Positions 9,245 through 11,930 of a stretch of 45,384 nt of DNA are shown piece by piece; the first letter of the stretch is position 1, and every line of letters starts with the position of its first letter. A model generated the notes under the pieces. That model saw only the letters and a program-made list of their open reading frames with translations, did not search any database and was not told the origin of the DNA. Source of the DNA: a virus; the IMG/VR virus record IMGVR_UViG_3300025379_000021, positions 1 to 45,384 of that record, one strand, 5' to 3'. Both the position numbers and the translations under genes were made by a program.

Positions 9245-9670
9245 ATGAAAGGTCATAAGCATCACGAAATGCATGGTGAACACCACGCCCACGGCGGCGC
9301 GGCTCACCATATGGTAAAGAAGCATTCTATGCATTCGATCAAGCGCGCTGCCCACAAAAAGGGCGGCAAGGTTGAATCGCCAATGCATGGTGAAGTAGAC
9401 GAAGATCCAACGCCAAACGAAGTGTACGCTGGCGCTGGTTCGCACACCGTACATGAAGCTGGCGAAAAGCATGCTGCCCGCAAGCGCGGTGGCCGTACTC
9501 ACAAGGCGCACAAGCACCTTGAGATGCATGGTCATCATGCTCATCACCGCCTTGACCGCCCTGCCCGTAAGTCGGGTGGTGCAGTTGGTGGCGCTGAAAT
9601 GCGTCCATTCTCTGCTGCCAACAAGGTTAAAACCCCTGCTGGCCGCATGGTGGAGCCGGGGGAGTCGTAA
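9245..9670 (+). CDS. His/Lys/Gly-rich virion-type protein with GGR motifs
   Basis: 141 residues, exceptionally rich in His and basic residues (HKHHEMHGEHHAHGG at the N-terminus; HKHLEMHGHHAHHRL near residue 90). It contains three Gly-Gly motifs: HKKGGKV, RKRGGRTHKAHKH and RKSGGAVGG. The ribosome site is AAGGAG. Such His clusters can bind divalent metal. The stop at 9668 is followed in the -1 frame by an open stretch (9631-9873) that encodes a conserved-looking domain without any start codon, so this gene may really be the first part of a roughly 208-residue frameshift product. Confidence 0.7.
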   Translation: MKGHKHHEMHGEHHAHGGAAHHMVKKHSMHSIKRAAHKKGGKVESPMHGEVDEDPTPNEVYAGAGSHTVHEAGEKHAARKRGGRTHKAHKHLEMHGHHAHHRLDRPARKSGGAVGGAEMRPFSAANKVKTPAGRMVEPGES

Positions 9671-9873
9671 GCCGTCAGCATCATGCTGATGGCGGCGGAG
9701 CGAAGTGGATTCAGGGTGCTATCAAGCATCCCGGCGCACTTCACCGACAACTTCACGTCCCGGCTGGGGAAAAGATCCCCGCCAAGAAATTGACCAAGGC
9801 GGCACACAGCGAGAACCCTACTCTTGCTAAACGCGCCAGACTTGCTCAGACGTTGAAGAAAATGCACGATTAA
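9631..9873 (+). CDS. Probable -1 frame continuation of the His-rich gene
   Basis: This frame is open from just after a TAA at 9628 to a TAA at 9871 and contains no ATG, GTG or TTG before codons deep inside the domain. The encoded segment (KWIQGAIKHPGALHRQL, then GEKIPAKKLTKAA, then NPTLAKRARLAQTLKKM) is a conserved small phage domain I recognise at the C-terminus of GG-motif proteins. The only slippery stretch in the permitted window is the GGGGG run at 9658-9662 (codons CCG GGG GAG). A -1 shift there fuses ...MVEPG to GVVSRQHHADGGG. The cause may be programmed frameshifting or a homopolymer error in the sequence. Confidence 0.6.
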   Translation, partial: NPCWPHGGAGGVVSRQHHADGGGAKWIQGAIKHPGALHRQLHVPAGEKIPAKKLTKAAHSENPTLAKRARLAQTLKKMHD

Positions 9874-9876
9874 GTG

Positions 9877-9902
9877 GGGGGCTGCGGCCCCCTTCTTTCT
9901 TC
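9877..9902 (+). terminator. Rho-independent terminator
   Basis: GGGGGC (9877-9882) pairs with GCCCCC (9887-9892) around a TGCG tetraloop, followed by TTCTTTCTTC. It comes 3 bases after the stop of the -1 frame extension. That position supports 9873, not 9670, as the true end of the preceding gene. Confidence 0.75.
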
Positions 9903-9912
9903 GGAGGATTAC

Positions 9913-10158
9913 ATGACTGCTGCATGGACAAGATCAGAAGGTAAATCCCCATCCGGTGGCTTAAATGCCAAAGGACGGGCTTCGTATCATTCTGAAACGG
10001 GCGGAACCTTAAAGGCTCCAACAAAAAATACGCATAACTCCCGGCACAAGTCATTTTGCAGCCGGATGGAAGGGGAACGTGCCAAAATGACCAACATGAA
10101 AAACAAGCACGACCCAGAAAGTCGCATTAACAAAGCTTTAAGAAAATGGGGTTGCTAA
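9913..10158 (+). CDS. DUF6321-like small phage protein
   Basis: 81 residues from the ATG at 9913, which has GGAGG 7 bases upstream; a GTG at 9874 in the same frame lies inside the terminator and is unlikely. The sequence WTRSEGKSPSGGLNAKGRAS, then SFCSRMEGERAKMT and DPESRINKALRKW, is the pattern I associate with DUF6321, widespread in marine cyanophages and pelagiphages. Function is unknown; the basic charge and small size suggest nucleic-acid contact. It begins a run of very short genes with almost no spacing. Confidence 0.75.
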   Translation: MTAAWTRSEGKSPSGGLNAKGRASYHSETGGTLKAPTKNTHNSRHKSFCSRMEGERAKMTNMKNKHDPESRINKALRKWGC

Positions 10159-11231: not shown

Positions 11232-11930
11232 ATGACCACCAGCGGCACTTATGCGTTTAATCCGTCGCTTGGCGAAATCGTCTTGAATGCGTATGCACGT
11301 TGCGGCGTACGCAGGACCGCCATTATGCAAGAGCATATGACGGATGCACGATTTGAAACCAACCTCATGCTTGCCTCTTGGGCTAACCAAGGGGTTAACT
11401 TGTGGGAAGTTGTGCTTATTTCCGTGCCATTGGTGCAGGGCCAAACGACATATACGGTCCCGCAAAAGGTTGTGATGATTCTTGATGCCGTTATTCAGCA
11501 GAATACTGGCACTTCATCGCAATTTGACCGTGTTATTATGCCTATTTCCCGCACAGAATACAGCCAAACGCCAAATAAGTTGCAACAAGCACCGCCTACG
11601 GTATTCTGGTTTGACCGTTTAATTAACCCAACGGTTACATTGTGGCCCGTTCCTGATCAAAGTAATGTTTATACGTTGAACTATTATGCGGTGACGCAGA
11701 TTCAAGATGCTGAATTAACAGACGCGCAGACGGTTGACGTTCCATATCGCTGGTTAGATGCCTTGGCGGCAGGTTTGGCGGCACGTCTGGCGGCTATTTA
11801 TGCGCCGGATCGCATGCAAATGTTGGAGGCTAAGGCCCAGCAAGCGTATATGATAGCTGCTACACAGGATACGGAAAATGTTGGACTTTATATAATGCCT
11901 GGATTAGCGGGATATTTTAGGGTTTCTTAA
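11232..11930 (+). CDS. Head-tail adaptor (P22 gp4 / tail tubular A-like)
   Basis: 232 residues. Proteins of this type attach below the portal and connect to the tail. The N-terminal helices (LGEIVLNAYARCGVRRTAI; MLASWANQGVNLWEV), the beta hairpin VPLVQGQTTYTVPQKVVMIL, the segment TVTLWPVPDQ...YTLNYYAV, and the final helix (YRWLDALAAGLAARLAAIYA) follow the arrangement of this adaptor group in uncultured phages. A second, distinct adaptor is encoded at 20775. The gene starts at ATG after AAGGATAG. Confidence 0.72.
   Translation: MTTSGTYAFNPSLGEIVLNAYARCGVRRTAIMQEHMTDARFETNLMLASWANQGVNLWEVVLISVPLVQGQTTYTVPQKVVMILDAVIQQNTGTSSQFDRVIMPISRTEYSQTPNKLQQAPPTVFWFDRLINPTVTLWPVPDQSNVYTLNYYAVTQIQDAELTDAQTVDVPYRWLDALAAGLAARLAAIYAPDRMQMLEAKAQQAYMIAATQDTENVGLYIMPGLAGYFRVS

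Follow-up and report, generated by a model that had tools for sequence, protein, structure and literature searches.

Phages add C-terminal immunoglobulin (Ig)-like domains to a fraction of their structural proteins, either by a -1 or +1 shift or by plain fusion, examples being gene 10 of T3 and T7, Lactobacillus phage A2, and the Listeria phages PSA, A118, and A500 (PMC5009743). Lambda gpG/gpGT and other tail-assembly chaperones use a -1 shift near the end of a structural-module gene to produce short and long forms at a set ratio, and RF2 (prfB) depends on a +1 shift at CUU_UGA_C (PMC5009743). The fusellovirus SSV1, in turn, encodes VP2 as a free-standing small protein whose DNA binding and virion location are known (PMC4158269). 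The locus described here belongs to the IMG/VR virus record IMGVR_UViG_3300025379_000021, an uncultured phage whose record of 45,384 bases is the window. In it, the gene for a histidine (His)-rich basic protein overlaps a VP2-like domain placed in the -1 frame, and we are confident, from its sequence and that of its relatives, that a programmed -1 ribosomal frameshift yields, beside the short basic protein, a longer minor product that carries a VP2-like tail.

As in the Ig-like systems, the sign of the shift differs between relatives and some relatives have an in-frame fusion. The added domain is VP2-like and not Ig-like, however, the base protein is small, His-rich, and basic rather than a major capsid or tail protein, and the -1 shift site is nCG_GGG_GAG, a single-codon G-run. 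With lambda gpG/gpGT the locus shares a -1 shift near the end of a structural-module gene and two forms at a set ratio, whereas this phage looks SU10-like, not long-tailed, and the gene is no tail chaperone, nor is the domain one. SSV1 VP2 has a sequence-related basic domain of 56 residues, which in the phage version would be a C-terminal extension reached by recoding. The device itself has precedent; the gene, the domain, and the mixture of mechanisms look new, and no report of this frameshift case was found in the literature searched.

The His-rich open reading frame (ORF) ends in GTG GAG CCG GGG GAG TCG TAA. The -1 frame is open from position 9631, after a TAA at 9628-9630, to a TAA at 9871-9873; the peptide that it specifies is GGVVSRQHHADGGGA and then the 56-residue domain KWIQGAIKHPGALHRQLHVPAGEKIPAKKLTKAAHSENPTLAKRARLAQTLKKMHD (Table 1). 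No ATG, GTG, or TTG lies upstream of the domain in this frame, the first being at 9790, inside the domain, which would escape gene callers that require a start codon. The short and long forms have isoelectric points (pI) of 10.0 and 10.4, respectively, and net charges of 10.6 and 21.2 at pH 7, roughly a doubling. A sequence-only reading of the window had described a conserved domain without a usable start in the -1 frame after the His-rich gene, a shift confined between the TAA at 9628 and the stop at 9668, a GGGGG run at 9658-9662, and a terminator directly after the longer product. The frames, the start-codon scan, and the position of the terminator-like hairpin bear out these points; the domain is indeed conserved, but it has 56 residues and not the 55 then given.

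Table 1. Coordinates of the features of the overlapping frames in the window
Feature	Position	Strand	Basis
His-rich basic protein, 0-frame ORF, short form, 141 amino acids, 24 His	9245..9670	+	homologues in IMG/VR
Shift site C_GGG_GAG (0-frame CCG 9656-9658, GGG 9659-9661, GAG 9662-9664)	9657..9664	+	slip itself inferred
-1-frame extension after the shift, GVVSRQHHADGGGA plus domain, giving the 209-amino-acid long form	9661..9873	+	
0-frame stop TAA, two codons past the shift site	9668..9670	+	sequence
Stem-loop GCCGTCAGCATCATGCTGATGGC, 9-10 base pairs, directly after the stop, 6 nucleotides past GAG	9671..9693	+	folding, synonymous null
VP2-like domain KWIQGAIKHPGAL...LKKMHD, 56 amino acids, pI 10.8, predicted all-helical	9703..9870	+	
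Terminator-like hairpin with T-rich tail, 2 bases past the long product	9876..9893	+	

Comparison with relatives, whose loci are labelled Lnnn, shows the overlap, an invariant shift site, a conserved hairpin, selection linked to the domain, and the VP2 relationship. IMG/VR was searched in three ways. The domain protein as query, with no G-run demanded, gave 80 loci. A degenerate DNA pattern built on HRLDRPxRKxGG, a conserved motif in the His-rich part, picked up the gene regardless of how it ends; it was used in place of a single His-rich protein, which as query had returned one locus. The shift site was the third query, and its matches without the domain were dropped as chance. Copies were removed before counting, which left 32 distinct junctions on contigs from about 43 different metagenome numbers; L004 lacks one base in the upstream part of its 0-frame ORF, which was put down to a probable assembly error.

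The same -1 overlap without a start codon occurs in the 32 distinct sequences, including those from searches that did not demand the G-run. Among them (C)GGGGGAGTC(N)TRA is invariant, and CGGGGGAGTC-N-TRA stands at every junction; the arrangement, the 10-nucleotide CGGGGGAGTC, and the hairpin are repeated across these 32 sequences, which is more than chance would give. Over 28 distinct tails, the 0-frame codons nCG, GGG, and GAG are each found 28 times, nCG being invariant though its amino acid varies (Pro, Ser, or Ala), whereas of the 28 codons for a conserved Gly that lies six codons upstream only one is GGG. The 0-frame stop, TAA or TGA, follows two codons on in every relative, with varying third positions in the Ser codon, and the domain is conserved in its own frame, at 71-100% protein identity across the roughly 50 nearest loci. 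In L013 a TGA closes the -1 frame directly before GTCGGGGGAGTCGTAA. In this locus, as in L133 and L135, a stop just upstream keeps the -1 frame shut until 13 nucleotides before the 0-frame stop, which confines the shift to GTCGGGGGAGTCG or the corresponding stretch. GGG is the sole codon in GTCGGGGGAGTCG with perfect tRNA re-pairing at -1 (GGG to GGG), and the earlier proposal of GGGGG as the shift site agrees with both observations.

The stem-loop directly behind the 0-frame stop was absent from the sequence-only reading. The 47 nucleotides around it fold at -20.5 kcal/mol (z -3.4), and each of 20 distinct versions is more stable than synonymous recodings that preserve its -1-frame peptide (mean z of -3.0, with p between 0.000 and 0.042 for single versions). 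A stem-loop follows the stop in every version, the 5' base of the stem being fixed in position and the apical part very different between subfamilies. In the window's hairpin class, standard pairs fill the 54 pair cells without exception; three sequences carry the only double change, from A-U to C-G, and the other changes are wobbles; in a second class pairing is 96% and changes are only one-sided wobbles. The spacer of 6 nucleotides falls within the 5-9 nucleotides downstream at which a stem-loop acts as stimulator in programmed -1 frameshifting. Judged by its sequence, the junction is a standard -1 frameshift cassette of slip codon, spacer, and stem-loop, and a search of Rfam matched no known frameshift element.

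The domain is absent in four relatives (L181, L182, L199, and L200), which still end in GES* but write it with the codons GGC GAG, GGT GAA, GGA GAA, and GGA GAG. Their post-stop stem-loop is gone, and mainly a terminator-like hairpin stands in its place. L182 differs from L126 over 75 codons by 13 synonymous and no amino-acid changes, including GGG to GGT and GAG to GAA, the two that destroy the slip site. L181 and L182 nest inside shift-site clades in a tree that has few columns and many unresolved forks. Since GGG and GAG drift synonymously where the domain is lost while GES* is kept, it is the domain for which the slip site is maintained, and the short form, even without the long one, is probably of use.

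Under the favoured frameshift, most ribosomes would end at TAA 9668 and release the 141-residue protein, rich in Lys and Arg as well as His. Some would pause against the stem-loop, where the peptidyl Gly-tRNA may slip back by one base, from GGG at 9659-9661 to GGG at 9658-9660. Reading in the -1 frame would then resume with GGA (9661-9663) GTC GTA AGC and run into the VP2-like domain, giving a minor form of 209 residues with a C-terminal VP2-like DNA-binding domain. This long form may tether packaged DNA, with the phage setting the ratio of long to short. The slip in vivo, its efficiency, the tRNA that moves, the location in the virion, and the contact with DNA are inferred.

Several points weigh against this reading. 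G_GGG_GAG is not a perfect tandem heptamer (XXXYYYZ), and a single-tRNA slip must be assumed because the A-site Glu-tRNA could not re-pair on GGA. Dual coding could account for much of the invariance of GGGGGAGTC; dual coding at the shift site, on the other hand, means that the -1 frame must be translated. Helical covariation is thin, with one double change in the window's class and none in the second, and being weak by itself it leaves the hairpin to be argued mainly from stability and position. The match of the domain to PF25632 scores 26.5 bits, 0.5 bit below the curated cut-off of 27, and the domain is for this reason called VP2-like and not a member of the family.

The sequence-only reading had left two options, a slip in translation or one G missing from the sequence. 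The second would turn the two frames into a single continuous ORF through a sequencing or assembly error, for which a G homopolymer is a plausible place; one added base would join the frames, and L047 is a true in-frame fusion. Exactly five Gs are nevertheless present in 32 of 32 distinct relatives from about 43 metagenomes, and the collection holds no six-G relative, the only six-G match being an unrelated contig, so that such an error is in effect excluded. The 0-frame stop, always two codons on while Ser third positions vary, and the synonymous decay of the G-run where the domain is lost likewise speak against a missing base, and of the two options slippage is the one supported. Equally negligible is the chance that the domain is a decaying remnant, once in frame and now untranslated. 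Its loss in the four relatives above might suggest so, but those losses are whole deletions and not frame decay, the domain elsewhere stays conserved in its own frame, and the cassette is invariant.

Slippage of the transcribing polymerase on GGGGG could in principle replace ribosomal frameshifting, the site being a five-base homopolymer, but is very unlikely: bacterial polymerase slippage usually needs longer A or T runs, the conserved hairpin, being downstream, can affect ribosomes but not a transcribing polymerase, and the codon phase nCG-GGG-GAG is fixed. Slightly more room, though still little, must be given to separate translation of the domain, with a non-standard start behind GGGGGAG used for initiation or for re-initiation coupled to the stop. 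This run resembles a Shine-Dalgarno (SD) sequence, and related domains have their own ATG in L016, L044, L046, L054, and L065. A separate gene with its own start, which had been named as one of the findings that would speak against a frameshift, is seen only in more distant relatives; the window and most close relatives have no ATG, GTG, or TTG. The codon after GTC is GTA, ATA, or CTG and stands only 2 nucleotides away from the SD-like run, the 23 nucleotides that come next are taken up by a stable hairpin, and the shift region is conserved in both frames, all of which disfavours initiation there.

The assignment of the domain rests on several comparisons. It matches the Pfam family PF25632 Fusello_VP2_Capsid with an E value of 8.7e-6, and hhalign aligned it with SSV1 VP2 over 56 columns, the whole domain (probability 94.7, E 6e-8). 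AlphaFold2 predicts four helices in it, at moderate confidence (predicted local distance difference test score 76). Sequence and fold searches of the PDB with the domain gave nothing significant, and a viral fold library returned only uncharacterised phage proteins. Its sequence links the domain to VP2 of the fuselloviruses, which binds DNA and is part of the virion. A VP2-like domain is also found embedded in long GG-repeat, Met/Pro-rich proteins of other freshwater phages (L018-L042, L058, L063, and others).

Other members of the gene family reach the domain by other routes. Among -1 loci, L188 and L194 have ACG GGG GAA followed directly by a larger hairpin, CCCTTC...GAAGGG (p 0.002 and 0.010), and L038 and L079 have, in place of the G-run, a C_CCU_UUC heptamer in phase and, a few nucleotides further downstream, a strong stem-loop (p 0.076 and 0.016, respectively). 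In a +1 group of 14 loci (L016, L056, L180, L184, L192, L196-L198, L201, L218, L240, L246, L270, and L272), GAY_UGA_C, with GAC or GAT, stands at every junction, nine of them found without requiring TGAC. No start codon lies near the junction in L056, L192, L197, L270, and L272; in the remaining loci ATG or GTG arises via the preceding codon. Like RF2, the +1 relatives (L056, L192, L270, and others) shift, if at all, at UGA_C, but their P-site codon GAC or GAT cannot pair on ACU or AUU, so re-pairing of the CUU type is lacking, and an SD-like sequence 3 nucleotides upstream in many loci is not significantly enriched over synonymous recoding (p 0.088). These two points make the +1 reading weaker than the -1 reading; a frameshift without re-pairing is possible, with re-initiation as its rival. 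In L047 the His-rich part and the domain form a continuous in-frame fusion, and in L044, L046, L054, and L065 the domain is a separate gene with ATG. That relatives reach the same end by different slips shows that selection acts on the slip and that no sequencing error lies behind it.

L049 (IMGVR_UViG_3300012942_000108) is a single case in which the domain follows in frame after UAG without a start codon, making stop-codon readthrough possible. L185, L204, and L173 encode a His-rich family protein followed by an out-of-frame DUF6582-like C-terminal domain, placed after CCC_UAA in L185 and after nine As in L204, with Pfam matches below the family cut-off. On balance, we lean towards regarding this head-region gene as a recoding hot spot, where C-terminal DNA-binding and other domains have repeatedly been gained in the minor form only, by at least three to four signals and in both directions: -1 at nCG_GGG_GAR, -1 at C_CCU_UUC, +1 at GAY_UGA_C without re-pairing, and possibly +1 at CCC_UAA, -1 on nine As, and UAG readthrough.

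The His-rich gene follows a Mu gpT-like major head protein and precedes an SU10-like adaptor. The portal upstream (365-2509) and the adaptor (11232-11930) match Pfam SU10 families, which suggests a short-tailed, SU10-like phage; tail-fibre genes lie downstream. Given this place in a head gene cluster, both forms are probably virion or head-assembly proteins. Directly after the terminator lies a small DUF6321 gene (9913-10155), which alone in the region resembles a cultured phage, Pelagibacter phage HTVC033P, at the DNA level. The phage isolate records searched held no relative of the cassette and the genome collection only two distant domain matches, so that no cultured host was identified.

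A phage counterpart of VP2, the DNA-binding protein of fuselloviruses, seems to be widespread and to be supplied as a minor isoform, which gives a lead, open to test, on the way in which these head proteins deal with packaged DNA. The family, in which the same domain is reached by -1 shifts, apparent +1 shifts, fusion, or a separate gene, and the shift site decays once the domain is lost, amounts to an experiment of nature that allows comparison of the reasons for which phages retain frameshifting. If the gene is indeed a recoding hot spot, selection would keep the ratio of long to short form and not the mechanism.
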